Shown here: piece after piece, positions 5,605 to 30,138 of the stretch
Layout: every line of letters starts with the position of its first letter
How positions within the stretch are numbered: position 1 is the stretch's first letter
Assembly: GCA_031292515.1 (NCBI GenBank)
Contig: JARLGZ010000253.1
Location: 1-33,556 of the forward strand
Direction: 5' to 3'
DNA length: 33,556 bases
DNA from: Puia sp.
Lineage (GTDB): Bacteria; Bacteroidota; Bacteroidia; Chitinophagales; Chitinophagaceae
Position numbers and translations under genes: made by a program
The notes under the pieces: generated by a model
Database searches by the model: none
What the model was told of the DNA's origin: nothing
What the model saw: only the letters and a program-made list of their open reading frames with translations

Positions 5605-5609
5605 CTTCA

Positions 5610-13417: not shown

Positions 13418-13474
13418 TAGGCTCCCCAAACTGTGAGAGCCATCATTTATCGTCCCATATCGCCACGCGGACGG

Positions 13475-14004: not shown

Positions 14005-14022
14005 TTTCATTCCTGTTTTTTT

Positions 14023-14048: not shown

Positions 14049-14238
14049 AATTCCATACCGCTCGCGACCAATCGAGCCTAATTCCTAAGTATTTCATTGT
14101 CAAACTTTTGGGGAGGAGTCGCAATGAACCAATAACCAGTATCAGCCATCGATTTGACCTGCGTCAAAAAAACTAAGCAGGAGTATGTTACCTTAGGGTA
14201 AACTCAAAGGCTACTAAACAATCATTCCAAAGCAAAAC

Positions 14239-14300
14239 GAGGAATGCCCGGTGTTGAGATGAATACTCAGTGTTAAAGATGAATACCCAGTGTTAAAGAT
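14239..14300 (+). repeat. Three-copy 20-bp tandem repeat at the start of the phosphodiesterase gene
   Basis: Two nearly identical 20-base units (14258-14277 and 14278-14297, consensus GATGAATACYCAGTGTTAAA) follow a degenerate third copy from 14239. Both candidate start codons of the next gene, GTG 14290 and ATG 14299, fall in or beside the last unit. Confidence 0.75.
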
Positions 14301-15144
14301 GTGCAGATATTTTTTGAACAGCCTATCTCTTATCATATCCCTGAGCTGCATGTATTCTTGCCGTCCCCTTAGCTTTTATGGCGAGCCCGACAAACCTTTC
14401 TTTTGTTCCGGGAAAAAAGGGATAGCAAATAATCAACCCTCCGACTCATTGAATGTGGTGACATTCAACATTAAAAAGGCGAGGAAAATACAATTGGCGA
14501 TCTCCGAAATGAAACAGTTAGGGGAAAAGACGCCCATTGATATTTATTTGTTGCAGGAAATGGATGAAAAAGGTGTAGAGGCCATTGCAGCGGATCTGGG
14601 ATTAAATTATTTATACATCCCCATCGCGTATGACAAGTCGGATAGAAAGAATATCGGCAATGCTATATTAACTCAAGGCACAATCGGGCGTCCAGAAAAA
14701 TTGATATTGCCGCATGCGAAATGGCAGAACCAGCAACGGCGGGGCGTTACCATAGCGGAAGTAAATATCCATCAGAAGAAAATACTGGTATTCTCCGTTC
14801 ACACGGAAACCGTAGCCATGAGCCGGAAAATGAGAATGGACCAGGTCGACTCCGTTGTTCGCTTCGGCCAGCAAGAGTCGTCATATTATAAATACGTTTT
14901 GATAGGGGGAGATTTTAATACGCTCTTTCCAAAATATTCCCGGTTGGTAGTAGGAAAATTCAACAGTTTCGGATTTGATTGTCTAACATCGAATGTCGGC
15001 AGTACCGCAAAGGCAATGATGGGATTGGTTAAACCAAGAAACGACTATTTGTTTTCGAAAGGATTCACATTGGTGGATTCATACGCCATACGGAGTTCAA
15101 AATCGAGCGACCATTATCCCGTACTTGCGACATTGCGGTATTAA
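14299..15144 (+). CDS. Endonuclease/exonuclease/phosphatase-family lipoprotein
   Basis: The 281-residue protein (from ATG 14299; GTG 14290 adds three residues) has an export signal with Cys at about residue 21 in MYSCRP, consistent with a loose Bacteroidota lipobox. The catalytic domain has all family motifs: TFNIK (metal Asn), LLQEMD (metal Glu), SVHTET (His), GGDFNT (Asp and Asn) and SDHYPVL (terminal Asp-His pair). Family members cleave phosphodiester or phosphomonoester bonds in nucleic acids, sphingolipids or inositol phosphates; the substrate is not evident. An extracytoplasmic location favours a nutrient-phosphate or extracellular-DNA role. Its GC content lies between that of the island and that of the following genes. 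Tandem repeats cover its start. Confidence 0.85.
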   Translation: MCRYFLNSLSLIISLSCMYSCRPLSFYGEPDKPFFCSGKKGIANNQPSDSLNVVTFNIKKARKIQLAISEMKQLGEKTPIDIYLLQEMDEKGVEAIAADLGLNYLYIPIAYDKSDRKNIGNAILTQGTIGRPEKLILPHAKWQNQQRRGVTIAEVNIHQKKILVFSVHTETVAMSRKMRMDQVDSVVRFGQQESSYYKYVLIGGDFNTLFPKYSRLVVGKFNSFGFDCLTSNVGSTAKAMMGLVKPRNDYLFSKGFTLVDSYAIRSSKSSDHYPVLATLRY

Positions 15145-15255
15145 AAGTATTTTCACCTCTCTTCAAATCGGTCCTGGATTTCTTAAAAGTTTTCGAATCA
15201 AACTCCTGATGTATTGGAATTTGCCCTTACATTCATGTTGTTTTTTATAATGCTT

Positions 15256-16068
15256 ATGGAGAACAATCCACTTACAAACAATGATCTTCAACTCAGGACT
15301 GTCAATGTGGTCCGCTACGTAACACCGTTGCGGGAAGGCGGCTCGCTGCCGGCGATCGCCGAAGCCGATGACGGTTTTTTATATGTCCTCAAATTCCGGG
15401 GTGCGGGGCAGGGGGTCAAGGCTTTGATCGCCGAATTGATCGGCGGCGAGGTCGCCCGGGCGCTCGGATTGAAGGTGCCGGAGATCGTGTTTGCCAACCT
15501 GGACAGTGCCTTTGGCCGCACGGAGCCGGATGAGGAGATACAGGACCTGTTGAAAGCCAGCGTGGGATTGAATGTCGCGCTTCATTATCTTTCCGGCGCC
15601 ATCACCTTCGACCCGGCGATTATGACGATTGGTCACCGGCTGGCTTCACAGATAGTCTGGCTGGATTGCCTGCTCACCAATGTGGATCGGACTGCCCGCA
15701 ATACCAATATGCTGATCTGGAATAAGGAGCTTTGGCTGATCGATCACGGCGCTTCCCTCTACTTCCATCATTCCTGGGACAACTGGGAGGAGCAGGCCTT
15801 GCGGCCTTTTGTGCAGGTAAAGGATCATGTGTTGCTATCCCGGGCGACCGAGCTCGACTCAGTCGACGCGGAGTTTCGCTCTATTTTAACGCCCTCGTGT
15901 ATCCGGGCCATCGTCGACCTGATCCCGGATTGCTGGCTAGTGCCAGGGTTGGAAGCCGGGTCGGGGGATGCGATCCGGGAGGTTTATGCCCGGTTCCTGG
16001 AGACGCGTGCCGGGTCGTCGGAAATTTTTGTAAAAGCAGCAAAAGATGCCAGCAAATTACTTGTTTGA
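15256..16068 (+). CDS. HipA-like kinase-fold protein
   Basis: From ATG 15256 the protein has 270 residues; a TTG-initiated extension to 15214 would add a hydrophobic stretch of no clear use. It resembles the short HipA-like (HipA_2) family. LYVLKFRG (about 42-49) is the ATP-lysine strand, AELIGGEVARALGL (about 59-72) a helix, TNVDRTARNTNML (about 141-153) the catalytic loop, and ELWLIDHGASLYFH (about 158-171) the metal-binding Asp. It lacks the HipB-binding N-terminal domain of classical HipA. The DUF3037 gene overlaps it by 23 bases; this pairing recurs in bacteria and suggests joint action. Substrate and biological role are unknown. High GC fits native chromosome. Confidence 0.8.
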   Translation: MENNPLTNNDLQLRTVNVVRYVTPLREGGSLPAIAEADDGFLYVLKFRGAGQGVKALIAELIGGEVARALGLKVPEIVFANLDSAFGRTEPDEEIQDLLKASVGLNVALHYLSGAITFDPAIMTIGHRLASQIVWLDCLLTNVDRTARNTNMLIWNKELWLIDHGASLYFHHSWDNWEEQALRPFVQVKDHVLLSRATELDSVDAEFRSILTPSCIRAIVDLIPDCWLVPGLEAGSGDAIREVYARFLETRAGSSEIFVKAAKDASKLLV

Positions 16069-16490: not shown

Positions 16491-17126
16491 TTATTTCTGA
16501 AGAATGCCGAAATCCACTACCCGGCGGAGGTAGTTTTTGTCCTGGATCACCCAGGTATATTCGGAGCCTCCGAAGTCGGGGTTGAACATGTAGATATAGA
16601 TCCTGCTCTTATCGCCGGAGAGATATACGTTGTTGCGGGTCTTGGCGCTGCCGGATTCGTTGTAGCTGAACCGGGGCTCGAAAAGATCCGAATAGGCCTC
16701 TTTCGGAATGGCGACGGTGTCTTTGCCAATGAGTACGGTGACAGACTGAACGATGGTCCTGGGCAGCTCTCCATAGTTTCCGCCATAATAGGGGTGTCCG
16801 TTGATTTTTAGCACGTGGGTCTCCTGGCGCTGGATCTTGTATTTGGAGGGGTCGAAGGCTCCTGTTCGGATCGTGACCTGGATGTTATCCCCTTCGAAGG
16901 TCATAAAGTTGTTGCCATATTCTTTTACCGGCAGATTCTTGAGTACGGCTTTGCCGATGCTCTCGTCGACCCCGGCTAAGAGAAAGGAGGCGAGATCGTT
17001 GCGGAGCGGCATGTCCCTGACTTTCGAGAAATTATCCTTTTTGCTGCGGAAATCGGGGAAGTCGAGATCCTGGGCCATTCCGGCCACACTGCCGCAGAGT
17101 AGTAAAAACGATAAGAGGTAGCGCAT
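16491..17126 (-). CDS. Secreted protein of unknown function
   Basis: The 211-residue protein has a signal peptide (MRYLLSFLLLCGSVAGMAQ, cleavage after AQ or near). The mature domain contains strands with TFEGDNIQVTIRTG, HVLKINGHPYYGG, RIYIYMFNPDFGGSEYTWVI and a final VDFGILQK. It looks like a compact beta-rich periplasmic domain with no catalytic motif that I can name. It lies between the HipA/DUF3037 pair and the carbohydrate cluster and has no obvious operon partner. Confidence 0.75.
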   Translation of the reverse strand: MRYLLSFLLLCGSVAGMAQDLDFPDFRSKKDNFSKVRDMPLRNDLASFLLAGVDESIGKAVLKNLPVKEYGNNFMTFEGDNIQVTIRTGAFDPSKYKIQRQETHVLKINGHPYYGGNYGELPRTIVQSVTVLIGKDTVAIPKEAYSDLFEPRFSYNESGSAKTRNNVYLSGDKSRIYIYMFNPDFGGSEYTWVIQDKNYLRRVVDFGILQK

Positions 17127-17321: not shown

Positions 17322-19385
17322 TTATTTAGCCACTACTTTCAGGACACCCCTCATGACCATATAGTGCCCGGGGTAGCTGCAAATGTAGACATACTGGCCG
17401 GGTTTGTCGGGCGCGATGAAATAGATGGTATCGGACTCTTTTGGATGCAGCAGCCGGGTGTGAAAAAGCACGTCCTGGCTGGAAGGGACAAAGCTCATCT
17501 TTTCGCCATTGAGGCCCAGGGTGACTGCCAGTTGCCCCACTTTGTCTGCCGTTCCCGGCCGCGTGATGACAAAATTATGCAGCATGTCGTCGCTGTTTTT
17601 AAACGTGAGTTTCACTTTTGCACCGGCTTTCACGGTAAGCGTCTCCTGGTCGAATTTCAGTCCCGGTTTGGTGCCGATCACCAGGGTGCGGTCGGGCCCG
17701 CTGGTCCAATCGGCCGGTTGTTTCGTGAGGTGTTTGACACCCGACACTGCTTTTATGGAACCTTTGCCGCCGGCTACGCCCCCCGTCATGTTCATCATGT
17801 CGTGATGATGCATCACAGGCGTGACTTTGTTGGCGGCTGTGATCGCCAGCTTGTCACCGTCGGGGAAATTATTGAGCGTGTAGTAGCCATAGTTATGGAG
17901 CAGTGCATACCTGTTTGTCGAGCGAATGCCCGGGGCCCTGATCTCATGGATATATCCCAGCCGCATGCTGTCGACAACCAGCCTGACCTTCATATGGTCG
18001 GGCGAGACTTCGATCGCTTTGAGCGGGCAGGAACCGATATTGATCACGGGGCTTCCGTATTCATGGTGATATTGATAGGTAAAGCTGGACAAGGCCCAGG
18101 AGGACGGATCTTTTGCTGTTTTGTCGTCGACGGCTTCCGTGAATTCGATCTCGAATCCATCGGGGCGAGCCTGGACGGTCTTCATTTCGAAGGGTGTCTT
18201 GCCGTTCCATTCCAGTCTTTGCAGTCCATATAGGCCGCCGCCCGTGGAACTCCATCCCCGGGAGGTCATACCCACGAACATGCTGCCGTCGGAGCCCCAG
18301 TTCATGCGCAGGATACCCGAAGAGAACCCTTCGCGGAAGGGCCATACCATGCCCTGGTAGACGCCCTTGATCTTTTCCAGGTAAACGCGCATGATCTTGC
18401 TTTGTCCCTGGTCGCCTACGAAGAGCTGGCCGGTGAAGGGCCCCATCTTCCCCTGGTAGGGAGTCGAAATACCTTTGTCCTCATAGTTCAGGATGCCCGA
18501 AGTGGAGACGCCCAATATGGTATGCGGAAACCATACCGAAGGGGTCTTGAGGCCGGGTATTCTTTTGGCGACCTCGTATTTGGGTTCGCTGTCGTCGATC
18601 ATATCCTTTACCCTTAATTTGACGGGGCTGCCGGGCTCTGCCGCCCAGACGAGGCCGCCGGGATTGCCCATAAAATCGCCTTCTTCCATTTCCGTGATGC
18701 TCCCGGAACCGACCCAGTCGCCCTGGTTCTCGGCATAGAACATATCGCCCTTGTCATTCAACGCGAAACCGGCCGGTGAACGGAGGCCAGTCACGAAGGG
18801 CTTCATTTTCCCGTCGGCGGTGATCTTGATCGTCCAGCCGTGCCATTTGGACAGGCTTTCACCATGACCTACCCAGGCCAGGTTCAGGTTGACGGCCATA
18901 TTGCCGTCTTTGTCGAGGACCGGGCCGTATGCATATTCGTGATAGTTGCCCGAAAGCGGCCAGGAATAGATCGTCTTGTATTCGTCGGCTACGCCATCCC
19001 CGTCCAGATCCCGCAGGCGGGTCAGTTCCGAACGTTGTGTCAGGTACAGGTCTCCGTTGATATAGTTAAGCCCCAAGGCTTCGTGCAGCCCTTGCGCGAA
19101 TAAACGATATTTTGGAGGCTGGCCATTCTTCATATAGGGGTTGGAGATGATCCATACCTCTCCATGGCGTGTGCAGACGGCGAGCTGATCGTTTGGCAGG
19201 AAGGTCATGCCCCCGACTTCGAGGATGACGTCTTCGGGTATCTGGATCGTTTTGATACTGTAGAAATCGTCTTCTTTCTGGGTGAGTGTACCCGTGTCTT
19301 TCTTATCCTGGGCGAACAGAGCGGGGGAGAGGAGCCCGGTGAACAGGAGGGCAAAGGCTATTTTGAGATATTTATTGGTTGTCAT
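17322..19385 (-). CDS. Secreted beta-propeller dehydrogenase-like protein with azurin-like cupredoxin domain
   Basis: The 687-residue protein begins with a signal peptide (cleavage near ALFAQ, about residue 25). Residues about 45-400 look like the six-bladed propeller of the glucose/sorbosone dehydrogenase or PVC-type membrane-bound dehydrogenase class, with phrases such as LYLTQRSELTRLRDLDGDG, GLRSPAGFALNDKGDMFY and LFVGDQGQSKIMRV. A beta-rich middle domain (about 410-520) follows. The last 110 residues are a type 1 copper domain with His603 (MLHNF), Cys669, His674 and Met678 (C-x4-H-x3-M spacing as in azurin). The copper domain could take electrons from sugar oxidation or from c-type cytochromes. 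The propeller cofactor and substrate cannot be read. The promoter region carries repeated AACGTT motifs. Confidence 0.85.
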   Translation of the reverse strand: MTTNKYLKIAFALLFTGLLSPALFAQDKKDTGTLTQKEDDFYSIKTIQIPEDVILEVGGMTFLPNDQLAVCTRHGEVWIISNPYMKNGQPPKYRLFAQGLHEALGLNYINGDLYLTQRSELTRLRDLDGDGVADEYKTIYSWPLSGNYHEYAYGPVLDKDGNMAVNLNLAWVGHGESLSKWHGWTIKITADGKMKPFVTGLRSPAGFALNDKGDMFYAENQGDWVGSGSITEMEEGDFMGNPGGLVWAAEPGSPVKLRVKDMIDDSEPKYEVAKRIPGLKTPSVWFPHTILGVSTSGILNYEDKGISTPYQGKMGPFTGQLFVGDQGQSKIMRVYLEKIKGVYQGMVWPFREGFSSGILRMNWGSDGSMFVGMTSRGWSSTGGGLYGLQRLEWNGKTPFEMKTVQARPDGFEIEFTEAVDDKTAKDPSSWALSSFTYQYHHEYGSPVINIGSCPLKAIEVSPDHMKVRLVVDSMRLGYIHEIRAPGIRSTNRYALLHNYGYYTLNNFPDGDKLAITAANKVTPVMHHHDMMNMTGGVAGGKGSIKAVSGVKHLTKQPADWTSGPDRTLVIGTKPGLKFDQETLTVKAGAKVKLTFKNSDDMLHNFVITRPGTADKVGQLAVTLGLNGEKMSFVPSSQDVLFHTRLLHPKESDTIYFIAPDKPGQYVYICSYPGHYMVMRGVLKVVAK

Positions 19386-19419
19386 GATTGAAAGGTTACC
19401 TGTGATATATGACTGTTAT

Positions 19420-19490
19420 GCTGTGAGAAACGTTCCGTTGTACTGTCGGGAACGTTTTATTGTACCATAGCGTACTGTTGTGAACGTTTT
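19420..19490 (-). promoter_or_regulatory. AACGTT operator array upstream of the propeller gene
   Basis: AACGTT occurs at 19429-19434, 19451-19456 and 19483-19488. The last two lie in 19-base direct repeats (19440-19458 and 19472-19490, 17 of 19 identical, period 32). The first two also form the perfect inverted pair AAACGTTCC/GGAACGTTT. The array lies 44-103 bases before the gene start at 19385, where a LacI-type regulator could bind. Confidence 0.6.
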
Positions 19491-19502
19491 GCCGGAAATG
19501 TC

Positions 19503-20954
19503 TTACCACGTTATGGAATAAGTGACCGGGTTCGTATTCTTGTCGACGGGCACGAGTAATTCCCGGCCTCTTTTTGTCTTTCGAAGCAATACCGGGACAC
19601 TCGGATCTATCTGTATATAATATGATTTCCCGTCGATGGCATAGACGCCTTCGCCCACCGTTTCGATGATCGAACCCGCGACGATCCGGGCGTAGAGATT
19701 GGCCGGCGGATCGGTAACCTTTATTTCACGCATCAGGGAATAGGCGGAGGGCGCCGAGATCTTGTCTATCGCCCTGATGCCATTGTATTCGTATTCAAAA
19801 GCAGGAAATCGTTTGTCGTCCAGCGTGTAGCCCCGGTTGTGAAAATCGTCGAAGCCGACGGAGTCGGGCCAGGTGGCGTCGTGATCGGGTAAGATGGCCA
19901 GGGTAGGCGCGTCGGAAGTGACGATGACGCTGCCCAGTGGTTTTGCCAGTTGTGGTTCGCCGCGTTCGTGCCACATATCGGTGACATCCAGGAACTGTCC
20001 GCGCCATACCTGGAATAGGGCGCCTTCTTTCAGATCATAAGAGAAGTTTAGCTGGCTGGGATAGCCGGCGGAGATGACATGCGTCAGTTTTTTATCGCCG
20101 TAGTTGAGAAAGCTCCGGAGTAGGTAAGGCTTACCGTCCGCTTTCAGGAGGATCGGGTTATCGCCGGGATCCTGTTGTGCGGAAACACCCAGGGGTTTAT
20201 AATGAATATTCCTGAAGGCTACGTCGCCGTGATCGCCCTGGAGCATCAGCGGACCGGTGGGTTTCTCGTCGTCGAAGGCGGAAGAACGGGTCGGTCCTGT
20301 CACGTCTTCCTGCAACTGCACCAGCACCCCGTTCAGATAGACTTCGAGAAATCGCGCATTGCGGATCTTTTGTCCCGCGGTATTGAATTGGGGCGCCTGG
20401 AATCGTATTTTCAGGTGTTGCCAGAGGCCTGGTGCGCGGGAGACGTTCATGAGCGGGGCGATCCCCTCATACCCCTGGTGGCCGTCGCCGCGGGCGTCGT
20501 CCCAGCGTTGGTAGATACCGCCGCAATCCGAAAATTCGGGGTGTATTTTTGTCCAGCTGTCCAGCAGTTGCACTTCATAGCGGCCCTGGAGGTATACGCC
20601 GGAGTTGGCATTTTTTGCCATCATAAAATCGAGTTCCAGTTCCAGGTCTCCGAACTCGTCTTTTGTAATCAGGTGTTTGTTGTCTTTCTGACCGAGTATG
20701 TCGACGGCAACGCCGGTTCCGGGAATGGCTTTCATGAACCCTTCTCTATGGATATCGGCGAGCGCGTCGGAACCGATAGTCCAGTTGGGGCCCGATTCCC
20801 GGAATGCGCTGAAGTCGTTGAGCGGGATGGATGCTCCGTCCGGCGAAGTTTGTGCATGGACGGGAAGCGTGCTTACGGCGAGTGTGCATACAGCGAGTGT
20901 GCTGACAGCGAAGAGCAGGCTGGCGCGAGGGAAGCCTTTTTTGAAAATCTTCAT
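19503..20954 (-). CDS. DUF1080 (3-keto-disaccharide hydrolase family) secreted protein
   Basis: The ATG at 20954 gives 483 residues and puts a signal peptide at the N-terminus (cleavage after PVHA, about residue 34). The frame is open to 21134, but that upstream part carries no protein-like signal and would bury the signal peptide. The first domain (about 40-230) is a DUF1080 jelly roll, with FGDLELELDFMMAKNANSGV, then YLQGRYEVQLLDSW, GGIYQ and LQGDHGDVAFRNIHYKPLG. Family members hydrolyse 3-keto-glycosides. The second domain (about 245-483) is beta-rich with WRGQFLDVTDMWHERGEP and is found beside such domains in other secreted proteins. It leads a leftward unit with the propeller gene. Its signal peptide contains a pentapeptide repeat. 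Confidence 0.8.
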   Translation of the reverse strand: MKIFKKGFPRASLLFAVSTLAVCTLAVSTLPVHAQTSPDGASIPLNDFSAFRESGPNWTIGSDALADIHREGFMKAIPGTGVAVDILGQKDNKHLITKDEFGDLELELDFMMAKNANSGVYLQGRYEVQLLDSWTKIHPEFSDCGGIYQRWDDARGDGHQGYEGIAPLMNVSRAPGLWQHLKIRFQAPQFNTAGQKIRNARFLEVYLNGVLVQLQEDVTGPTRSSAFDDEKPTGPLMLQGDHGDVAFRNIHYKPLGVSAQQDPGDNPILLKADGKPYLLRSFLNYGDKKLTHVISAGYPSQLNFSYDLKEGALFQVWRGQFLDVTDMWHERGEPQLAKPLGSVIVTSDAPTLAILPDHDATWPDSVGFDDFHNRGYTLDDKRFPAFEYEYNGIRAIDKISAPSAYSLMREIKVTDPPANLYARIVAGSIIETVGEGVYAIDGKSYYIQIDPSVPVLLRKTKRGRELLVPVDKNTNPVTYSITW

Positions 20955-21007
20955 CTTGTGTTTGGTTGGTTTAATAAGAATCTGAAATATAGATCTTTTT
21001 TTTGAGT

Positions 21008-21021
21008 TGCAACCGATTGCA
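21008..21021. promoter_or_regulatory. LacI-type operator TGCAACCGATTGCA
   Basis: The 14-mer is palindromic at 12 of 14 positions with a central CG, the usual form of LacI/GalR-family operators. It lies 54 bases before the DUF1080 gene start in the divergent intergenic region. Confidence 0.6.
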
Positions 21022-21094
21022 TTTGTCGGCATTTCTGAGACAGGGTGGATAAAACTTAAATGAAAGGGCCACGCGGCGGGATTTTTGTTTCCAC

Positions 21095-21127
21095 GCAAAC
21101 GTTTGATGAGCTTTATCAAACGTTTGC
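21095..21127. promoter_or_regulatory. Twin LacI-type operators in a 33-base palindrome
   Basis: Two perfect palindromes CAAACGTTTG (21096-21105 and 21117-21126) lie 21 bases apart, exactly two helical turns. They are embedded in a larger perfect inverted repeat, GCAAACGTTTGAT with its complement around a 7-base spacer. The position between the divergent DUF1080 and cytochrome genes suits control of both. Confidence 0.75.
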
Positions 21128-21237
21128 ATGCCATTAATGATTTATATCTACGGCATAACTACCCATGGTTTTGAGCCAAAACCGCTAAAAAACGCTAAAT
21201 TAGTGGTGGCTGTTTGCCTCTAAATTCAACCGATTCC

Positions 21238-24117
21238 ATGCGCAAGGGCTGGTTAAACGATACGTTCATTAGTTTGAAGTCTACCGTCAGCAATAAGAAG
21301 GTCAGCATGCTGATCGCTTCCTCTGTAGTGCTTTTGGCTGCCGTCATTTTTTTGGCTACCCGGCAGGACCGGGTGGATTACAATACGCAAGTCAAGCCTA
21401 TCTTCAATAAGAAGTGCATTACCTGCCACGGGGGGGTGAAGCGGCAGGCGGATTTCAGCCTGCTTTTCCGTGCCGAAGCGCTGGCGCCCACCAAATCCGG
21501 GAAACCTGCCATCATTCCCGGGGACCCGGATCACAGCGAGATGATCCGGAGGCTGACCTTAAAAGACCCCGAAGAAAGGATGCCCTACCGGCATGATCCG
21601 CTGAGCACGCAGGAGATCGATATCCTCCGTAAGTGGATCAAGGAAGGGGCGCCATGGGGCGATCACTGGGCTTATGTGCCGGTAAAGGAAACCGAGCCGC
21701 CCAGGCCGCATGCACGATTTTTCGGATTGCTGGCAGCCTCGAAGCCGGCCTGGGTCAGGAACGATCTCGACTATTTTATTTATGACGGTCTGCAGAAAGA
21801 GAAACTGCAACCGGCTCCCGAGGCCGACCGGGCGACCCTGTTGAGACGGGTCAGCATGGACCTGGACGGGCTTCCTCCTTCCCCGGCTCTGGCCCGCCAA
21901 TACCTGGCTGAAAAGGATGGCGACAAGGCATATGAGCGTCTCGTGGATTCCCTGCTGGCTTCTCCGCATTTCGGCGAGAAATGGGCTTCCATGTGGCTCG
22001 ACCTGGCCCGCTATGCCGATACAAAGGGATATGAGAAAGACGGGGAGCGTCCGGAGATCTGGAGATACCGCGACTGGCTGATCCGGGCTTTTAATGCGGA
22101 CAAGCCCTATAATGTCTTTCTTACCGAACAACTTGCCGGCGATCTGCTGCCGGCCCATACCGACGAACAGATGATCGCGACGGGTTTTCATCGTAATAGC
22201 CTGACCAATGACGAAGGAGGGACGGACAATGAGGAGTTCCGTACGGCCGCCGTACTCGACCGGGTGAATACGACCTGGCAGGCCCTGATGGGAACCACTT
22301 TCGCCTGTGTACAATGTCACAGCCATCCATATGATCCTTTTAAGCACGATGAATATTATAATTTCGTGGCTTTTTTTAACGATACCCGCGATGAAGATAC
22401 TTATGACGACTACCCGTTGCTCCGGGAGTTCGGTAAATCCGACAGCGCCCGGCTACTCAAACTATCCGATTGGCTAAAGAATAAGGTGCCCGACGAAGAA
22501 AGGGCGCAGCAAATGCAGTTCCTGAAGACCTGGCAGCCTTCCATCAATTCGAATCGTGCGGAAGAGTTTGTAAACAGCGCGCTCCAGGACACCAAATACC
22601 TCAGCTTCCGGGATCATGGTTCCGCAAAGTTCCGGCAGGTAGACCTGGAGCGGATGGACCAGTTGATCTACCGATATACTGCCGGCGCAGACGGAGGCAG
22701 CTGTACGATCCATCTCGACAAGATCGACGGGCCGGTCCTGCAGACGATCCACGCGGCTAAAACCAAAAACTCCTGGGAGATCGCGGCGGTCCCTTTGCCT
22801 CCGACCGCTGGTGTCCATGACCTGTATCTTACTTTTACCAATAGCCGTCTGAAGAAGCCCACCGATGAAGGCATGCAGATCGACTGGCTCCATTTTGGAC
22901 GCAGCCTGCCGGGGAATAGCCGGGTGCCCGGCTATGATAGCGCGAGAAGTATCTATTGGGACCTCCTGGTCAAACAAATCCCCGGCATACCCGTGATGAT
23001 GGACAATCCCGCGGATATGCACCGGGTGTCGAATGTCTTTGAAAGAGGCAACTGGCTGGTCAAAGGCAAGGTGGTGGGTCCGGATGTGCCCCATTCCCTG
23101 AATCCTTTTCCGGCGGGCGCGCCCCATAACCGGCTTGGCCTGGCCGAGTGGATGACCGACAAAAGAAACCCGCTTGTCTCCCGTACCCTGGTAAACCGTC
23201 TCTGGGAGCAACTCTTCGGTACCGGTCTCGTCGAGACGTTAGAAGATATGGGGACACAGGGAGCGGTTCCTACCCACAAGGAACTGATCGACTGGCTGGC
23301 CTGGAAACTCATGAATGACGACGGGTGGAGCGTAAAAAAATGTCTGAAGGGCATCGTACTGTCGGCCACTTACCGGCAGGATTCCAGGGTCAGCCCTGAA
23401 CTGCTGGAGAAGGATCCATACAATAAATTATACGCGCGGGGGCCACGGGTGAGGCTGTCCGCCGAAGAGGTGAGGGACCAGGCGCTTACCGCCAGTGGTC
23501 TGTTATACGATAGTCTGTATGGGCCGCCGGTAAAACCCTGGCAGCCTGCGGGGATCTGGCATTCCCCCTACAATGGCGCTCAATGGAACACGAGCCCGGG
23601 AGGAGACCAATACAGGCGGGCTCTTTATACCTTTTGGAAGCGGTCCGCCCCGTATCCTTCCATGATCGCTTTCGACGGCGCTTCGCGGGAAGTATGTACG
23701 GCCCGGAGGATCCGGACCAACACGCCCCTGCAGGCCCTGGTGACGTTAAACGATTCCGCCTATCTGGAGACTTCTCGGCACCTGGCGTTTCGGATGATGG
23801 GAACGGAAGAAGAAAAAGAGCCCGGGCCAGGCGGGGAGAAGGGGAGGAAACAGGTAGCAGCTAACGACGCGCATCCGGACAAGGCGCAGGTGATCGCCAA
23901 AGGATATGAACTGCTGATGTATAAGCCGATCGAGCCGTCGAAGCTGGCAGTCCTTGAGAAGTTATACGACAAGGCTTATGCGCAGTTCGCCGGCGACGAA
24001 TACAAGACCTGCGAGATGGTAGGAGAGCCCGGCATCCATGATGATCCCGGTACGGCAGCCTATGTGGTCGTGGCGGGGGCGCTTTTGAATCTGGATGAGG
24101 TGGTGACGAAGAATTAG
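21238..24117 (+). CDS. Membrane-anchored cytochrome c / DUF1549 / CBM6-like / DUF1553 protein
   Basis: From ATG 21238 the protein has 959 residues (a TTG start at 21214 would add eight). Order: a membrane anchor at about 24-41; a Planctomycete-type cytochrome c domain with CITCH (60-64) and distal MPYRHD; DUF1549 (about 165-400) with SLTNDEGGTDNEEFR and a second heme motif CVQCHSHPYDPFKHDEYY; a CBM6-like beta-sandwich insert (about 475-560, with GGSCTIHLDKIDGPVL and AGVHDLYLTF); and DUF1553 (about 635-870) with NPLVSRTLVNRLWEQLFG and RIRTNTPLQALVTLND. The architecture is typical of PVC bacteria and some Bacteroidota, where it pairs with a DUF1501 gene, as here. Biochemical role unknown; the hemes and CBM-like domain suggest redox work on a polysaccharide. 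Confidence 0.88.
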   Translation: MRKGWLNDTFISLKSTVSNKKVSMLIASSVVLLAAVIFLATRQDRVDYNTQVKPIFNKKCITCHGGVKRQADFSLLFRAEALAPTKSGKPAIIPGDPDHSEMIRRLTLKDPEERMPYRHDPLSTQEIDILRKWIKEGAPWGDHWAYVPVKETEPPRPHARFFGLLAASKPAWVRNDLDYFIYDGLQKEKLQPAPEADRATLLRRVSMDLDGLPPSPALARQYLAEKDGDKAYERLVDSLLASPHFGEKWASMWLDLARYADTKGYEKDGERPEIWRYRDWLIRAFNADKPYNVFLTEQLAGDLLPAHTDEQMIATGFHRNSLTNDEGGTDNEEFRTAAVLDRVNTTWQALMGTTFACVQCHSHPYDPFKHDEYYNFVAFFNDTRDEDTYDDYPLLREFGKSDSARLLKLSDWLKNKVPDEERAQQMQFLKTWQPSINSNRAEEFVNSALQDTKYLSFRDHGSAKFRQVDLERMDQLIYRYTAGADGGSCTIHLDKIDGPVLQTIHAAKTKNSWEIAAVPLPPTAGVHDLYLTFTNSRLKKPTDEGMQIDWLHFGRSLPGNSRVPGYDSARSIYWDLLVKQIPGIPVMMDNPADMHRVSNVFERGNWLVKGKVVGPDVPHSLNPFPAGAPHNRLGLAEWMTDKRNPLVSRTLVNRLWEQLFGTGLVETLEDMGTQGAVPTHKELIDWLAWKLMNDDGWSVKKCLKGIVLSATYRQDSRVSPELLEKDPYNKLYARGPRVRLSAEEVRDQALTASGLLYDSLYGPPVKPWQPAGIWHSPYNGAQWNTSPGGDQYRRALYTFWKRSAPYPSMIAFDGASREVCTARRIRTNTPLQALVTLNDSAYLETSRHLAFRMMGTEEEKEPGPGGEKGRKQVAANDAHPDKAQVIAKGYELLMYKPIEPSKLAVLEKLYDKAYAQFAGDEYKTCEMVGEPGIHDDPGTAAYVVVAGALLNLDEVVTKN

Positions 24118-24233
24118 AGGCGAAAGGCGAAGGACGCGAATGGGCAAGATCCAAATGGGTAAGATGTGAATGGGGGTAGACGCAAATAACACGAATGGAC
24201 GCGAATTTGTGAGACACGGATAAATAAAAGAAT
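24118..24233. repeat. Degenerate GACGCGAAT/AAATGGG-type repeat spacer
   Basis: The spacer between the cytochrome and DUF1501 genes is made of short, imperfect repeats: GGACGCGAAT occurs twice, and AATGGG-like and GACGCAAAT variants occur between. No hairpin terminator or promoter is clear, so the two genes may be co-transcribed. Confidence 0.6.
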
Positions 24234-25754
24234 ATGACCCAGAAAGAAATTCATAATCAGCGGCTGGTGAATGAGGCCAATGCAAGGGCCCTGAGCCACC
24301 TGACACGCAGGCATTTTCTGAAGGAGAGCGCCATGGGGCTGGGTGCGCTGGCGCTCGGGGCTTTGCTGCCGGGCTGCGGGATAGGAACAAGCGGCGGAGC
24401 GGGCCTGGATGGAGGCATCGTTTTTGACCCTGCCAACCCGTTGGCGCCGAAGCTGCCTATGTTCCCCGGGAAGGCGAAGAGCGTGATCTACCTGCATATG
24501 GCCGGTGCGCCTTCTCAACTGGAGCTTTTCGATTTCAAGCCCGACCTGATGAAGCTGGACGGACAGGACTGCCCGGATTCGCTGTTAAAAGGGAAACGGT
24601 TTGCCTTTATCCGCGGTGTACCCAAGATGCTGGGGCCGCAGGCCCATTTTGCGCAGAGGGGTCAGAGCGGGGCGTGGGTAAGCGACTATCTTCCGCATTT
24701 TTCGACCGTCGTGGATGAGGTGGCTTTCCTGAAAGCCGTCACCACCGATCAGTTCAACCATGCCCCTGCGCAATTGATGATGCATACCGGGACGGGCAGG
24801 CTGGGAAGACCGAGCATCGGTTCCTGGGTGACCTATGGGCTGGGCTCGGAGAACCAGAATCTTCCGGGCTTTGTCGTGCTGACCTCGGGCGGCTATCTCC
24901 CCGATGCGGGCAAGAGCGTCTGGGGGAGCGGCTTCCTGCCCTCGGTGTACCAGGGTGTACAGTGCCGCAGCGAAGGCGACCCGGTATTGTTTATCAGGGA
25001 TCCCGACGGCATGAGCCGGGATCTGCGCAAAGCGTCCATCGACGCTATCAACGAGGTCAATAAACAGGAATACAAGGAATACAACGACCCGGAAATATTG
25101 TCCAGGATCTCACAATACGAACTGGCTTATCGCATGCAGATATCCGTGCCCGATGTGATGGATATCAATGACGAACCGGCGTATATCCATGAGATGTATG
25201 GTACAAAACCGGGCAAGGCGAGCTTCGCCAACAATGTCCTGCTGGCACGGAAGCTTGTGGAGAAAGGCGTGCGCTTCGTCCAGCTCTTTGACTGGGGCTG
25301 GGACAGCCACGGGACGGATCCCTCTACTTCCGTGGACATGGGGCTTATCAAGAAATGCAAGGAGGTGGACCGGGCAAAAACGGCCCTGCTCCTCGACCTA
25401 AAGCAGCGTGGACTGCTGGACGAGACCCTGGTCGTATGGGGCGGTGAATTCGGCAGGACGCCGATGATGGAAAACCGGGATGGTAAACAAAATCCTTTCA
25501 AAGGAAGAGACCATCATGTGGAGGCCTTTACCATCTGGATGGCGGGTGGCGGCATCAAAAAAGGCGCCAGCTACGGCGAAACCGACGAGATCGGATATGC
25601 CGCCATCAGCGGGAAGACGACGGCCTTCGATATCCAGGCGACGATCCTGAATCAACTGGGATTCGATCACACGAAGTTCACCTTCCCCTTCCAGGGCAGG
25701 CCTTTCCGGCTGACCGATGTAGCCGGAAAAGTCATCGATGATGTGGTCGCTTAA
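24234..25754 (+). CDS. DUF1501 protein, Tat-exported
   Basis: The 506-residue protein begins with a twin-arginine signal (TRRHFLKES with R25-R26, hydrophobic MGLGALALGALL), ending in LPGC with Cys48, so it may be a Tat-dependent lipoprotein. The rest is a DUF1501 domain of the alkaline phosphatase/sulfatase superfamily. SVIYLHMAGAPSQLELFDFK (near 83-102) is the metal-site start, FNHAPAQLMMHTG and FVQLFDWGWDSHG follow, and VVWGGEFGRTP and DHHVEAFTIWMAGGG carry the late ligands. The activity of DUF1501 proteins is not established. It follows the DUF1549/DUF1553 gene in the same direction, the normal pairing, and both should act outside the cytoplasm. Tat export implies folding before export. 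Confidence 0.9.
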   Translation: MTQKEIHNQRLVNEANARALSHLTRRHFLKESAMGLGALALGALLPGCGIGTSGGAGLDGGIVFDPANPLAPKLPMFPGKAKSVIYLHMAGAPSQLELFDFKPDLMKLDGQDCPDSLLKGKRFAFIRGVPKMLGPQAHFAQRGQSGAWVSDYLPHFSTVVDEVAFLKAVTTDQFNHAPAQLMMHTGTGRLGRPSIGSWVTYGLGSENQNLPGFVVLTSGGYLPDAGKSVWGSGFLPSVYQGVQCRSEGDPVLFIRDPDGMSRDLRKASIDAINEVNKQEYKEYNDPEILSRISQYELAYRMQISVPDVMDINDEPAYIHEMYGTKPGKASFANNVLLARKLVEKGVRFVQLFDWGWDSHGTDPSTSVDMGLIKKCKEVDRAKTALLLDLKQRGLLDETLVVWGGEFGRTPMMENRDGKQNPFKGRDHHVEAFTIWMAGGGIKKGASYGETDEIGYAAISGKTTAFDIQATILNQLGFDHTKFTFPFQGRPFRLTDVAGKVIDDVVA

Positions 25755-25841
25755 GAAGCCATAGAAGCCGGCAATATGAGCGGATCGGAAGACGTCTGAA
25801 AAAGCCGAAAATTATAATAGTTTTACCAAAAACTGACCCCT

Positions 25842-27278
25842 TTGCTTTTATCTGTTTTGCTATTATCCATCGTTGAATTCATTGGTCGCTTTCATCCCGT
25901 GCTGGTCCATTTGCCGATCGGCATCCTGCTCATGGGCCTCTTGCTGCAAGCGTTGTCACGCTACCCGAAATACGCCATTTCTCATGGCGTCATAAAAGTG
26001 GTGCTGTTGTGCGGGATGTTTTCCGCATTGGCTTCGTGTATTACGGGTTATCTTCTATCCCTGAGCGGCGAATATGACGACAGCCTGGTCGCCTGGCATA
26101 TGTGGATGGGCATCTGCGTGGCGCTGGTGTCCATGCTCCTGTTTGTAAAAGTGGCGAAGAAGGAAAATGACCTGGCTTACCGGGCTTTGTCTGCCGGTCT
26201 GCTCGTGCTGATCATGGTTACGGGCCATCTGGGCGGCTCGCTGACGCATGGTTCGGACTACCTGACGGCGGCCCTGGGCAGCGGTTTGGGGCCGGCTGCG
26301 GTCGCCCACAAGCCGATCCCGGATATCAAAGAGGCAAAGGTTTATGCCGACGTCATCCAGCCGATGTTGCAGGCCAACTGTTACAGCTGTCATGGACCGG
26401 ACAAACAAAAAGGCAAGTTGCGGCTTGACGATTCTGCCTGGATCGTCAAGGGGGGAAAGGACGGGGCTATCATACACCCTTTGCATGCTACGGAGAGCGA
26501 ATTGATGAAAAGGATACTCTTGCCCGCGGAGGATGAGCATCATATGCCACCCAAAGAAAAGACCCCTTTAAAAGAGAGCGAAATCGCCCTTTTCGGATGG
26601 TGGATCGACCAGGGTGCGAATTTCTCCGGGAAGGTGAAGGCGTTTCCGCAGCCGGGGAAAATCGGCGCCTACCTGTTGGCCCTGCAGGCCGGGAATGGCG
26701 GTAGCGGAGGCCCCAAAGCGTCCTCCCTGGTGCCTGCTGCCCCGGTGGAAGAAGCTGCTGAAAAAGACCTGGAAGCCTTGCGGGCGAAAAAGGTGGAAGT
26801 GATTCCCGTGGCCCATGGCAGCCACTACCTTTCGGTCAATTTTGTCAACGCGGTCGATGTCACAGATAAGGATTTACAACTGCTGGTACCCTTGCAGAAG
26901 CAGCTCGTTTGGTTAAAGCTGGGTAACCAGCCGGTGGGGGATAGCGGGATGGCGGCGATCGGGCAGTGCGGAGCGCTCACGGTCCTGCATCTCAACGATA
27001 CCCGTGTCTCTGATAAAGGCCTGACCTACCTGCAATCCCTGCATAACCTGCGTCTGCTTAACCTGGTGGGCACAGGGGTCACGGCTCAGGGCGTGGTTTC
27101 GCTGGAGCCCCTGAAACAACTGCAGTCTCTATTCCTCTACCGGACCCGCGTGGAGTTGAAGGATTGGAAATTCCTGCAGCAGCATTTCCCGAAGACGGCC
27201 CTGGATTCGGGTGGGTATGTGGTACCTTTCCTGCCCTGGGATACGATCGACGAGATGAGGCCGAAGAAGAAACAGTGA
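25842..27278 (+). CDS. DUF2231 / cytochrome c / leucine-rich-repeat membrane protein
   Basis: The 478-residue protein starts at TTG 25842; no upstream or early ATG exists, so a non-ATG start is forced (TTG 25857 is possible). Four transmembrane helices (about 18-38, 50-72, 85-104, 115-132) form a DUF2231 module with RFHPVLVHLPIGILL, whose histidines may bind heme b. A Planctomycete-type cytochrome c domain follows, with CYSCH (180-184) and axial Met235 in HHMPPKEK. A linker leads to about four leucine-rich repeats (about 350-450). It probably passes electrons between the membrane and periplasmic partners of the same cluster, such as the preceding cytochrome protein or the cupredoxin. The spacer from the DUF1501 gene is 87 bases. 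Confidence 0.85.
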   Translation: MLLSVLLLSIVEFIGRFHPVLVHLPIGILLMGLLLQALSRYPKYAISHGVIKVVLLCGMFSALASCITGYLLSLSGEYDDSLVAWHMWMGICVALVSMLLFVKVAKKENDLAYRALSAGLLVLIMVTGHLGGSLTHGSDYLTAALGSGLGPAAVAHKPIPDIKEAKVYADVIQPMLQANCYSCHGPDKQKGKLRLDDSAWIVKGGKDGAIIHPLHATESELMKRILLPAEDEHHMPPKEKTPLKESEIALFGWWIDQGANFSGKVKAFPQPGKIGAYLLALQAGNGGSGGPKASSLVPAAPVEEAAEKDLEALRAKKVEVIPVAHGSHYLSVNFVNAVDVTDKDLQLLVPLQKQLVWLKLGNQPVGDSGMAAIGQCGALTVLHLNDTRVSDKGLTYLQSLHNLRLLNLVGTGVTAQGVVSLEPLKQLQSLFLYRTRVELKDWKFLQQHFPKTALDSGGYVVPFLPWDTIDEMRPKKKQ

Positions 27279-27520
27279 GGGGCGTAGTGAGTAGTGAGTA
27301 GTGAATAGTGAGTAGTCAGTTGTGAGTAGTCAGTAGTGAATAGTCATCAGTAGTGATGAGTGATGAGTAGTGAGTGGAGGAGTACGAGGTAGGTGAGTAG
27401 TGAGCTGAGGAGTAGGCGGGTAGGTGAGTAGTGAGTGGAGAGATGGGGTGAGAGTAGTAAGTGGATTGTCTGATGAGAGAGGAGTAGGGAGTAAGACGTA
27501 AGAAGTGAGGGAGATGGACG
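27279..27520. repeat. Low-complexity GTAGTGA repeat tract
   Basis: About 240 bases consist of imperfect copies of AGTAGTGAGT and related GGTGAGTAGTGAG units, with almost no C on the plus strand. Unit length and spacing vary, unlike CRISPR. The first codons of an open frame starting at GTG 27505 lie in it, but the following gene starts better at 27553. Confidence 0.85.
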
Positions 27521-27552
27521 ACATTAGGCATGTTTTTTTAATAACAAGCGAT

Positions 27553-30000
27553 ATGTTCAGAAATCTTCTTAAGGTTGCCTTCCGGAGTCTCCGGAAGCAC
27601 CGGTTTCATTCCGGGTTGAATATTTTTGGCCTGGCGTTGGGCATGGGCTGTTCCCTGGTATTGTTCCAATTTGTCCGCTATCATCTGGGCTTCGATGCCT
27701 ATCACCGGAATGCCGGTCATCTTTACCGGGTAGTCACCGATCTGCACCTGGACGACGGATCTGTCGAATTCGAAAGGGGCGCGCCGCTGGCGCTTGTGGA
27801 GGCCCTGCGACGGGAAGTTCCCCAGGTCAGCAATACGGGGGTCCTGGTGAATAATCATTTTTTTATGGTCAGCATCCCCGAAGAACCTTCCGTAAACAGG
27901 CCGGGAGGAAAAGATGAGACAGGCGAAAAGATCTTCGCCGAGCACGAGAATACGGCGTTTGCCGACCGCCATTGGTTCGAACTCTTCGACTACCACTGGG
28001 AAGCGGGGGATGCGGCTACGGCGCTGCAGGCCCCCAATATGGCTGTGATAACGGCCGGGCTGGCAAAAAAATATTTTGGGGAAGCCGATCCGATGGGTCG
28101 GGTGATCCGTATCGATAGAAAACAGTCTGTGACGATTACGGGTGTCGTGTCCGATCCTCCCCCAGCCACGGATTTTAAAACAGCGCTGTTTGTTTCGTTG
28201 TCATCCTACCGGAATTTCTTCCCGGACGATCAGGCGTTCCGGACCAACTGGTGGCTGATGACTTCGAGGACTTCCTTATTTATCTTGCTTCCGCAGGGCG
28301 TTGCCGCCGGGAGCGTCGATAAAGCCATCCGGGGTCTCACGAAGACCAACATGGGAGAGATGTCCAAAAACTACCAATTCCATTTGCAGCCGCTGAAAGA
28401 AGTGCATTTTGACGGGAGATATAGCGGAGTGATTTCACGGTCATTGCTGACCACGTTGGGCTTGGTCGCCATTTTCCTGTTGCTGATCGCCTGTATCAAT
28501 TTTATAAACCTGTCCTCCGCCCAACAGGCGAGAAGGGTCCGTGAGATTGGAACCCGCAAGGTATTGGGCAGCGGACCGGCCGCCATCTTCTGGCAATTTA
28601 TGACCGAGACCTCGCTGATGGTTTTGCTGGCGGCCATCGGGGCCGTTTGTTTGTTGGCTGTGCTTATACAGGGGTTAAACAACTGGCTGCAGCTCGATCT
28701 CGGTTTTAAGATGATCGGAGGCGGAAGCGCTGTGGCCTATTTCATACTGCTATTGTTGCTGGTGGCTGCTGCGGCCGGTCTCTACCCGGCGCTGATGCTG
28801 AGCCGTGTCAGGCCCATCGCCGCCTTAAAGACGGCGTCGGGGAATATGCCCGGATCCTCCCGGCCTTCCTGGCAACGGAAGGGGCTCATCATTTTGCAGA
28901 ATGGCTGCGCGCAGGTGTTGATCGTTTGTGCACTGGTTATTACGATGCAGATGAACTATATCAGGAACGCCGATCTGGGGTTTAAAAAAGACGCCGTCGT
29001 CATGCTGCGGGTACCGGATACCAGTGCCTACAAGATGGCTGTCCTTCGGGAGCAGTTGCTGGCAAGACCGGGTGTAAAGGAGCTGAGTTTTTGTTTCCGT
29101 GCCCCCTCTTCCGACGCGAACAATGGCGGTTCCGTCCGGTTCGACGACCGTGACTGGGAGAAGTTCGTGGCCCGTTCGATTGAGGGGGATTCTCACTATG
29201 TGCCGACCTTTGGTTTACGGTTGCTTGCCGGCAGAAACCTGCAGGAAAGCGATACGATCCGGGAGTTCCTCATCAATGAGGACCTGGTGCATAAGTTGGG
29301 CTTTCGTGATCCCGGACAGGTCATCGGGCATCGGTTGGTGGCGGGGGACGTCGCCGGCGATCACCCGGGAGTCATTGTGGGCGTGGTGGGCGACTTCAAC
29401 TACAGCTCCCTGTATGGAGGAATTGAACCCGTGGAGATCAGTACGGTCAGAGAGAACTACAAATATGCGGCGATAAAATTAAATGGCGTTTCGGCCGGCG
29501 GTGGTCAGGTATTAAAAGAGGTCGATGCAATCTGGAGATCCGTCTATCCGGGGAATGTCTTTGAATATCATTTTTTAAACGAACAGATCGAGGGTTTTTA
29601 TCGCAGCGAAGAAACGCTGAACAGGATGATCGGCGTCGCTGCGGTGGTGGCGATTGTAATTAGCTGTCTGGGGTTGCTGGGTTTGGTCTCTATGCTGACC
29701 CTTCAACGCACAAAGGAAATCGGCATCCGCAAGGTATCGGGGGCATCGGAGGGACAGATCCTGGTGCTGTTGGCGAAGGATTTTCTGCAATGGGTGCTGC
29801 TGTCGATCCTGATTGCGGTTCCCGTTGCCGGGTGGGCTATGCATCAGTGGCTGCAGCGTTTCAACTACCGGATCCCATTTCCCGGATGGCTGTTTGGGCT
29901 ATCGGGGGTGGGTGGTGTGATCATTGCCCTGTTTACGATCGGCTTCCATGCGACAAGGGCTGCGCGGGCGAACCCGGTCGAGGCATTGAGGAGGGAGTAG
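27553..30000 (+). CDS. FtsX/MacB-type ABC transporter permease (1 of 3)
   Basis: From ATG 27553 the protein has 815 residues; this start gives the canonical opening MFRNLLKVAFRSLRKHRF, whereas the GTG at 27505 lies in repeat DNA. Plan: helix 1 (about 20-40), a MacB periplasmic core domain, an FtsX block of three helices with EIGTRKVLGSG (about 328-338), then a second periplasmic domain, and a final FtsX block with TKEIGIRKVSGAS (about 719-731). Such two-FtsX-domain permeases work with a separate ATPase in extrusion or lipoprotein-type mechanotransmission; no ATPase gene is in the window. Both halves are intact. It is a diverged paralogue of the next two genes. Confidence 0.9.
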   Translation: MFRNLLKVAFRSLRKHRFHSGLNIFGLALGMGCSLVLFQFVRYHLGFDAYHRNAGHLYRVVTDLHLDDGSVEFERGAPLALVEALRREVPQVSNTGVLVNNHFFMVSIPEEPSVNRPGGKDETGEKIFAEHENTAFADRHWFELFDYHWEAGDAATALQAPNMAVITAGLAKKYFGEADPMGRVIRIDRKQSVTITGVVSDPPPATDFKTALFVSLSSYRNFFPDDQAFRTNWWLMTSRTSLFILLPQGVAAGSVDKAIRGLTKTNMGEMSKNYQFHLQPLKEVHFDGRYSGVISRSLLTTLGLVAIFLLLIACINFINLSSAQQARRVREIGTRKVLGSGPAAIFWQFMTETSLMVLLAAIGAVCLLAVLIQGLNNWLQLDLGFKMIGGGSAVAYFILLLLLVAAAAGLYPALMLSRVRPIAALKTASGNMPGSSRPSWQRKGLIILQNGCAQVLIVCALVITMQMNYIRNADLGFKKDAVVMLRVPDTSAYKMAVLREQLLARPGVKELSFCFRAPSSDANNGGSVRFDDRDWEKFVARSIEGDSHYVPTFGLRLLAGRNLQESDTIREFLINEDLVHKLGFRDPGQVIGHRLVAGDVAGDHPGVIVGVVGDFNYSSLYGGIEPVEISTVRENYKYAAIKLNGVSAGGGQVLKEVDAIWRSVYPGNVFEYHFLNEQIEGFYRSEETLNRMIGVAAVVAIVISCLGLLGLVSMLTLQRTKEIGIRKVSGASEGQILVLLAKDFLQWVLLSILIAVPVAGWAMHQWLQRFNYRIPFPGWLFGLSGVGGVIIALFTIGFHATRAARANPVEALRRE

Positions 30001-30138
30001 GAGGCCGGGAGGTCAAAATGAAACAGCCTGTGTATCGAAAACGGACAGCGGAGAGATGCTGTATGAGGGTAAATATTTGATTTTCATTTCTTTGTAAGCC
30101 GGGCATGTTTTTGGTCCCTTTGTTGCAAACCAAGAGCT

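Follow-up and report, generated by a model that had tools for sequence, protein, structure and literature searches.

Two conserved exported redox modules meet at a promoter with putative LacI-type operators in one Chitinophagaceae clade

A 33,556-nucleotide contig of a Puia genome (the window; contig C120 of genome G000, 7.3 Mb in 285 contigs) carries five genes that read away from a common intergenic region. These genes belong to two separate conserved modules, joined under one shared promoter in a small lineage. Module A encodes a beta-propeller protein with a blue copper domain (propeller-azurin, P0001) and a DUF1080 protein (P0002), while module B encodes a DUF1549/CBM6/DUF1553 protein (P0003), a DUF1501 protein and a DUF2231/cytochrome protein. 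The balance of the evidence tips towards a reading in which two independently evolved periplasmic modules for sugar or glycan oxidation have come under the control of a single LacI-type switch within one Chitinophagaceae clade. A sequence-only reading of the window had listed the same five genes as one co-regulated system, and Pfam bears out the genes, their domains and their positions:

17322-20954, minus strand: module A
17322-19385, minus strand: module A gene 2, exported beta-propeller with a C-terminal azurin/auracyanin-type blue copper domain (Pfam, PDB sequence matches)
19503-20954, minus strand: module A gene 1, DUF1080 (3keto-disac_hyd) followed by an unnamed C-terminal domain of about 225 residues (Pfam, PDB)
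21008-21021, no strand: third LacI-type palindrome, TGCAACCGATTGCA, kept in genome G019 and not evident in G008
21095-21127, no strand: operator-like pair GCAAACGTTTGA-N9-TCAAACGTTTGC, copies 21 bp apart (promoter alignment, pattern search)
21238-27278, plus strand: module B
21238-24117, plus strand: module B gene 1, hydrophobic N-terminal anchor, PSCyt1 (CITCH), DUF1549 with CVQCH, CBM6 and DUF1553 (Pfam, CXXCH search)
24234-25754, plus strand: module B gene 2, DUF1501 protein with predicted twin-arginine (Tat) export (Pfam, NCBIfam TAT_signal_seq)
25842-27278, plus strand: module B last gene, DUF2231 membrane domain, PSCyt1 haem motif (CYSCH) and LRR-like (leucine-rich repeat) tail (Pfam, CXXCH search)

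Results

Each module is conserved in its own right

Module A was followed through the best 80 of 582 candidate loci, which come from named records, most of them assigned to Bacteroidota or one of its genera; the closest named locus among them is a Chitinophagaceae palsa metagenome-assembled genome (MAG; L104). A P0002-family gene lies directly upstream of the propeller-azurin gene on the same strand in 61/80 loci, with a median gap of 15 bp, and one gene away in 14 more, for a total of 75/80. The remaining five show neither arrangement, one of them being cut by a contig end. Because the loci were the best 80 of 582, this figure covers close relatives of P0001. Module A is described here as a conserved two-gene unit of propeller-azurin and DUF1080/C-terminal-domain proteins.

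DUF1080 was detected in 48 of the 61 directly adjoining partners; what stays constant in the partner is the C-terminal domain, for which Pfam has no name. In two Pedobacter loci this domain (245 residues) is all that is encoded, DUF1080 being absent, and the scanned partners from Emticicia and Larkinella have a DUF1080 part that scores slightly under the Pfam cut-off. The C-terminal domain has 181 database relatives, from candidates limited in length, and the 120 that were listed have Pfam DUF1080, in some cases together with PA14. The 32 largest neighbour families of the 80 loci, judged by their sequence starts and unannotated, included no recurrent sugar dehydrogenase. A literature search of limited depth found no publication combining a propeller-azurin with a DUF1080 partner, making this pair a second, widespread and apparently undescribed two-gene unit. 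Cultured strains that have it include Pedobacter panaciterrae, Spirosoma fluviale and Algoriphagus aquimarinus.

Module B was compared within the genus, in 32 congeneric genomes (many of them drafts in many contigs, with genes called as the longest open reading frame, ORF), and in a sample of 296 genomes of the phylum. Neighbour counts rest on home-made hidden Markov models (HMMs) with set thresholds, standing in for Pfam. P0003 orthologues occur in 21/32 congeneric genomes, and the DUF1501 and DUF2231/cytochrome genes both follow P0003 in 19/19 same-genus loci that cover the downstream side, window included, so the grouping of the plus-strand genes exceeds chance. Across the phylum, DUF1549 was found in 38/296 genomes. 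PF07583 (DUF1549) gave 140 matches (136 outside the window genome; 34 genomes), and 80 regions were hand-picked from the 136, tandem copies mostly being skipped. One region (L202), in which a contig end cuts the locus and no P0003 was called, was left out, giving 79. DUF1501 lies within 6 kb of DUF1549 in 77 of these loci (within 500 bp in 76), and a DUF2231/cytochrome-like gene does so in 44/79.

A SusCD pair adjoins module B in G007 and, by similarity, in G014, and no SusC or SusD was found among the 20 window ORFs scanned with Pfam. In some congeners (L048:3745-8726, L050:10125-15143), module B is adjoined by a DUF1800 protein and a DUF1501-like protein with a secretion tail, another DUF1501 partnership beside this module.

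The modules stand side by side in a small lineage. Among 19 same-genus loci in which the upstream side of module B is at least partly covered, module A lies divergently beside it in three (the window, L042 of G008 and L073 of G019), and the other 16 have no DUF1080 nearby, as far as the contigs reach. In G019 the two modules are on two contigs that break inside P0003, and we infer that the halves are one gene. A P0003 tree places G000, G019, G028, G008 and G020 in one supported clade, within which P0003 of the window and of G008 are 67% identical. The G020 contig starts partway through P0003, and a search of that genome found no propeller-azurin. G028 has both modules on a single contig, separated by about 38 kb, so the join has been either kept or lost within one lineage. 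Beyond this clade, the two modules converge in L111, and in two Algoriphagus loci a DUF1501 gene and a DUF2231/cytochrome-like gene are found 6-9 kb from module A; L128 and L135 also contain cytochrome-like matches.

A divergent promoter with putative operators

The DUF1080 gene was called as an ORF of 19503-21134, which is probably 60 codons too long. Its true start is probably the ATG at about 20954, since a database copy (P0248) has 483 aa; a signal-like N-terminus can be read from residue 61 of the called ORF, consistent with an exported DUF1080 hydrolase domain. On the other side, the gene called from TTG 21214 probably starts at ATG 21238, as a database copy (P0128) has 959 aa. These starts leave a divergent, intergenic promoter of about 280 bp, from about 20954 to ATG 21238, and the start at about 20954 makes the operator pair at 21095-21127 intergenic.

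The pair, GCAAACGTTTGA-N9/10-TCAAACGTTTGC, lies between the arms in all three genomes with module A beside module B, and no such pair was seen in 15 other core loci with visible upstream DNA. Around the third palindrome, positions 20982-21024 are 95% identical to L073. Since this pattern was derived from the window before being searched for, its presence there does not count as a test. In the 32 congeners (168.7 Mb by rounded sizes) the pair occurs in four places, with none in a reversed control: upstream of the P0003 orthologue in G019 and in G008, between SusC and a glycoside hydrolase (GH) family 123 gene in G012, and in G028 at the beginning of a fucosidase gene that precedes GH92. The DNA flanking the pair has diverged in G008 and is close to the window in G019, so its conservation in G019 says less.

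Palindromes of the LacI type with a central CG are thus present and conserved as putative operators. Because the pair in the divergent promoter is kept in three genomes and is rare elsewhere, co-regulation of modules A and B is supported within one clade. The claim of a co-regulated cluster thus stands for the shared promoter of these three genomes and fails as a description of a general system. Likewise, conservation of the neighbourhood across Bacteroidota holds for each module and does not hold for the two together.

Shorter sites matching the 10-mer CAAACGTTTG were also located. Five of the 13 in the window genome are on one contig, C148 (258 kb; binomial p 2e-4), and in G028 such a site lies upstream of the gene preceding module A. 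Another stands at the start of an ORF encoding ThuA and a GSDH propeller (L291:1496-3010, contig C238 of the window genome).

A candidate regulator and inducing sugar

A single run of genes in G028 contains a LacI gene, a GH109 gene and module B. Relatives of this LacI at E 1e-60 or better occur in 18/33 genus members, some of them paralogues; they are present in 5/5 genomes with the operator pair versus 13/28 others (p 0.049). The relative in the window genome (76%) is on C148 with an APH-family kinase, a major facilitator superfamily (MFS) transporter, a fucosidase and an 82% identical GH109, and sites TCAAACGTTTGC and TCAATCGTTTGC lie between the fucosidase and GH109. The G008 relative is 12 kb from the operator and adjoins a kinase, a GH109-like gene, GH92 and a fucosidase, and that of G012 is 8 kb from the operator. 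This LacI, encoded in loci of the N-acetylgalactosamine (GalNAc) type, is a candidate binder of the operator.

Of the sites on C148, two are flanked by a SusCD pair on one side and, on the other, by an exported-type Gfo/Idh gene with a double-DUF1080 gene after it. Such an arrangement of Gfo/Idh, DUF1080 and SusCD is expected of a keto-sugar locus. In locus L062 of the window genome, a Gfo/Idh gene adjoins a DUF1080 gene other than that of module A.

By analogy with the neighbourhoods of the LacI genes, the chances are roughly even that GalNAc or a related N-acetylhexosamine is the signal. The kinase (APH), MFS and GH109 set in the candidate LacI locus is like that of the B. theta GalNAc locus BT4240-50, where the set reported to handle GalNAc is BT4240/4242/4243 (PMC11992087). 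Unlike in B. theta, the set is on another contig, and its link to the window is via the operator and LacI only.

Proteins of module A

The 17322-19385 protein has a Copper-bind match (1.6e-9), and auracyanin and azurin are the PDB sequence matches of its copper domain. Four residues, H603, C669, H674 and M678, are invariant across 48 aligned sequences, and their match to the ligand motif (His, Cys-x4-His-x3-Met) marks them as the probable copper ligands. With this ligand set inside a cupredoxin domain, the protein is predicted to hold a blue copper site.

The propeller is less readily placed. Its DUF7133 match (25.2 bits) is under the 27-bit cut-off, and its resemblance to TIGR02604 is also under the cut-off. 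GSDH gave no Pfam match in the window propeller at E 0.001, and its match in an orthologue is weak (21.6 bits versus a cut-off of 25). A GSDH template for the propeller was sought in PDB and none was found. P0001 relatives occur in 5/58 genomes at E 1e-20, the window genome included.

The window genome has a second propeller (contig C211, L099:9423-11408), also with a DUF1080 partner, in which a CXXCH tail replaces azurin; the cytochrome c matches of this tail are weak and below the cut-off. The swap would exchange one electron carrier for another. With a CXXCH tail standing in the place of azurin, it is the strongest sequence-level indication of electron transfer from the propeller.

The DUF1080 match of the partner is 1.6e-29 in the called ORF, and its PDB matches are 4qhz and 3imm. 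Downstream of module A, at 16491-17126, is a small exported-looking protein without a Pfam match. It is kept at that place in G019 (81%), and G009 has a relative about 3.7 kb away from module B. In G008 and G028 (L042:13521-19126, L097:14136-19501), the DUF1080/propeller-azurin pair is followed by a run of TMEM220, unknown, TatD-like, UbiA, 3-dehydroquinate synthase-like, unknown and phosphodiesterase genes, which resembles the ebo/edb cluster.

Proteins of module B

Pfam matches in the called ORF 21214-24117 are PSCyt1, DUF1549, CBM_6 and DUF1553, so that PSCyt1, PSCyt2 (DUF1549) and PSD1 (DUF1553) are all in one protein. It has two CXXCH motifs, at residues 68 and 365, both invariant in 23 aligned sequences, and its PSCyt1 region matches cytochrome FoxE (E 8.7e-4). 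The 24234-25754 protein matches DUF1501 at 1e-143 and has a predicted Tat signal (NCBIfam, 21.2 bits versus a cut-off of 16.7); its LLPGC may be a lipobox, which would make it a lipoprotein. The 25842-27278 protein has DUF2231, PSCyt1, five hydrophobic 19-mers and one CXXCH. The leucine-rich repeats that the sequence-only reading gave to its tail have no Pfam match in the window, LRR matches being seen in a paralogue only; DUF2231 and PSCyt1 stand. As that reading also proposed, the five proteins look exported or membrane-bound. Together they have one predicted copper site and three CXXCH haem motifs.

The literature searches found no function for DUF1549, DUF1553 or DUF1501, and DUF1549 and DUF1553, common as they are, are given no established activity in the passages found. 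A single-sequence PDB search with DUF1501 gave chance-level matches only. The hhalign comparisons of DUF1800 with DUF1549/1553 (probability 0.3%) and of DUF1501 with type I phosphodiesterase (2.8%) both carry no information, since each had only one sequence on its second side.

The congeners usually have a fourth gene. A Tat-type AP_endonuc_2 protein of about 309 residues (a xylose-isomerase-like TIM barrel, by Pfam) is encoded between the DUF1501 and DUF2231/cytochrome genes in 15/19 same-genus loci; it is missing from module B in the window, G028, G014 and G007. Strong matches (E up to 1.2e-150; next best 1.1e-84) occur in 20/22 genus members with P0003, the window genome counted, and in 1/11 without it (Fisher p 7e-6). 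AP_endonuc_2 thus tracks module B across the genus; in the phylum it lies within 6 kb of DUF1549 in 8/79 loci. The fold includes keto-sugar enzymes. Residues resembling metal ligands are invariant in 14 sequences, and no PDB match was found at E 0.01. In eight of the loci listed the slot is filled by a Tat-type protein of 340-354 residues; the one scanned has NHL repeats. The idea that DUF1080 stands in for AP_endonuc_2 in the window is not supported, because G008 and G019 carry both.

Discussion

In the reading we favour, each module would contribute a part of an oxidative pathway. Module A would supply a propeller with an enzyme-like domain and a built-in copper electron carrier, and its DUF1080/C-terminal-domain protein would probably bind or cleave an (oxidised) sugar substrate. 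Module B would supply a membrane-anchored cytochrome with a carbohydrate-binding module and an exported DUF1501 protein, usually supplemented in the genus by the exported sugar-isomerase-like TIM barrel that is missing in the window. Most likely, these periplasmic proteins would act on a sugar set free from a glycan that contains N-acetylhexosamine and oxidise it; copper and haem would carry electrons towards the DUF2231 membrane cytochrome, which would pass them to the respiratory chain. Judged by the domains, sugar oxidation is the most likely activity of the modules, and electron flow to the membrane is inferred from the same features.

Several observations weigh against this reading. DUF1080 lies within 6 kb of DUF1549 in 1/79 phylum loci versus 3.2 expected by chance, the expectation coming from Pfam counts per genome and the observation from a home-made DUF1080 HMM, built from six of the matches listed, that may miss members. 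A propeller-azurin-like gene is likewise within 6 kb of DUF1549 in 1/79 loci. Seen from the other side, DUF1549 is within 10 kb of propeller-azurin in 3/80 loci, two of which are the window's own clade. The link to LacI is statistically weak at its p of 0.049, and the gene is outside the window. Taken alone, the CAAACGTTTG 10-mer is barely more frequent in the window genome than in a reversed control (13 versus 10 sites), and other sites adjoin genes that have no link to GalNAc (TetR, transpeptidase, melibiase, GH78). PDB searches matched no solved structure to the propeller, and a search for pqqC, a gene of pyrroloquinoline quinone (PQQ) synthesis, found no match, having been run without a positive control.

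One alternative, which overlaps the favoured reading so that the two are not exclusive, is that module A alone makes and uses a keto sugar. The propeller would dehydrogenate, the azurin or cytochrome would take the electrons and DUF1080 would cleave, with module B serving a separate activity in the same regulon. The 75/80 pairing and the azurin/CXXCH swap suit this idea, as do the sub-cut-off similarities to GSDH in an orthologue and to TIGR02604 and DUF7133. Against it, DUF1080 is below the cut-off or absent in some propeller pairs, so its chemistry is not essential to every one of them, and no PQQ synthesis gene was found by the uncontrolled pqqC search. Sorbosone/glucose dehydrogenases, moreover, act on C1 or aldehydes, not C3. 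We regard this alternative as a minority possibility.

We are similarly doubtful that the modules are chance neighbours, merely side by side, with an operator that serves one arm only. The lack of any A-B association outside the clade agrees with that idea, and so does the separation of the modules in G028. On the other hand, the arrangement and the operator pair are kept in G000, G019 and G008 despite the divergence of P0003 between the window and G008. In G028, furthermore, GH109 and LacI precede module B, and the gene ahead of module A has a CAAACGTTTG site upstream.

Least well placed is the model of the sequence-only reading, in which module B oxidises a glycan to a 3-keto form, electrons pass through haem and copper to the membrane, and DUF1080 hydrolyses the 3-keto glycoside. 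We consider it improbable: an operator common to both arms, the AP_endonuc_2 gene that accompanies module B in the genus and the characterised or genetically implicated DUF1080 3-keto-glycoside hydrolases BT2157 and CCNA_01705 (PMC9007349) speak for it, while DUF1080 is tied to the propeller-azurin gene instead. The conserved co-occurrence of DUF1080 and cytochrome genes on which that reading had staked itself did not appear, either in the phylum count or in the 16/19 genus loci noted above. DUF1080 is rejected as a general partner of DUF1549 because of that phylum count. Among the 20 window ORFs scanned, Pfam found no Gfo/Idh/MocA, LacABC or GMC sugar dehydrogenase, nor any other known 3-keto-forming dehydrogenase family, so the 3-keto-forming step has no identified enzyme in the cluster; the step is possible.

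Known systems offer partial parallels, drawn here from portions of the cited reports. Planctomycete-type PSCyt/PSD genes, in which DUF1549 goes with DUF1553, are described from Verrucomicrobia MAGs (PMC5615132) and from Rhodopirellula, where the two domains have 41 copies each (PMC2754498). Like those genes (PMC5615132), P0003 combines PSCyt1-PSCyt2-PSD1 with a carbohydrate-binding insert, has a suspected sugar or redox role and adjoins a conserved partner family, which is DUF1501 here and a family of no known function there. Unlike them, the genes described here are in Bacteroidota, with DUF1501, DUF2231/cytochrome and, in congeners, exported AP_endonuc_2, and are joined to an azurin/DUF1080 pair via a promoter of predicted LacI type. 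The periplasmic LacABC/DUF1080 3-ketoglycoside pathway (PMC9007349) also sets an exported DUF1080 protein beside redox genes; in contrast to it, the cluster yielded neither a LacA-type nor a Gfo/Idh dehydrogenase, and the redox partner is propeller-azurin. THTE_1561 shares the DUF1080 domain and is reported as an endo-xanthanase/lichenase, a small enzyme of the endo-glucanase type (PMC10881899, PMC5673643). Since DUF1080 includes such endo-glucanases (PMC10881899), the domain alone does not imply 3-keto chemistry.

The operator, the G028 GH109 neighbourhood and the linked AP_endonuc_2 turn a vague sugar role into specific questions: which N-acetylhexosamine induces, and which keto- or lactone-sugar is made. 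It is tempting to speculate, with little probability attached, on a LacI regulon responsive to an N-acetylhexosamine (GalNAc) and driving oxidative glycan breakdown in the periplasm, in which propeller-azurin would be a copper-linked sugar dehydrogenase with a DUF1080 partner and DUF1549/DUF1501 a second, haem-linked sugar oxidase feeding the exported AP_endonuc_2 enzyme. If true, this would give functions to DUF1549, DUF1553 and DUF1501.

Other features of the window

A 9.7 kb stretch at 5552-15288 encodes a serine recombinase (5711-7273) as well as a relaxase (8839-10152) and resembles an integrative mobilisable element. It is absent from G019, where its flanks are 223 bp apart, and one of its junctions is inside a tRNA-Gly (5532-5605). 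An AbiEi/AbiEii toxin-antitoxin pair and a RES-domain-like gene, with RES just below the cut-off, lie at 90-2340. Module B is followed by three tandem MacB/FtsX-like permease genes (27505-33556), one of which also follows in G019 (L076). The last of the three is cut off by the contig end and appears internally shortened near its start.

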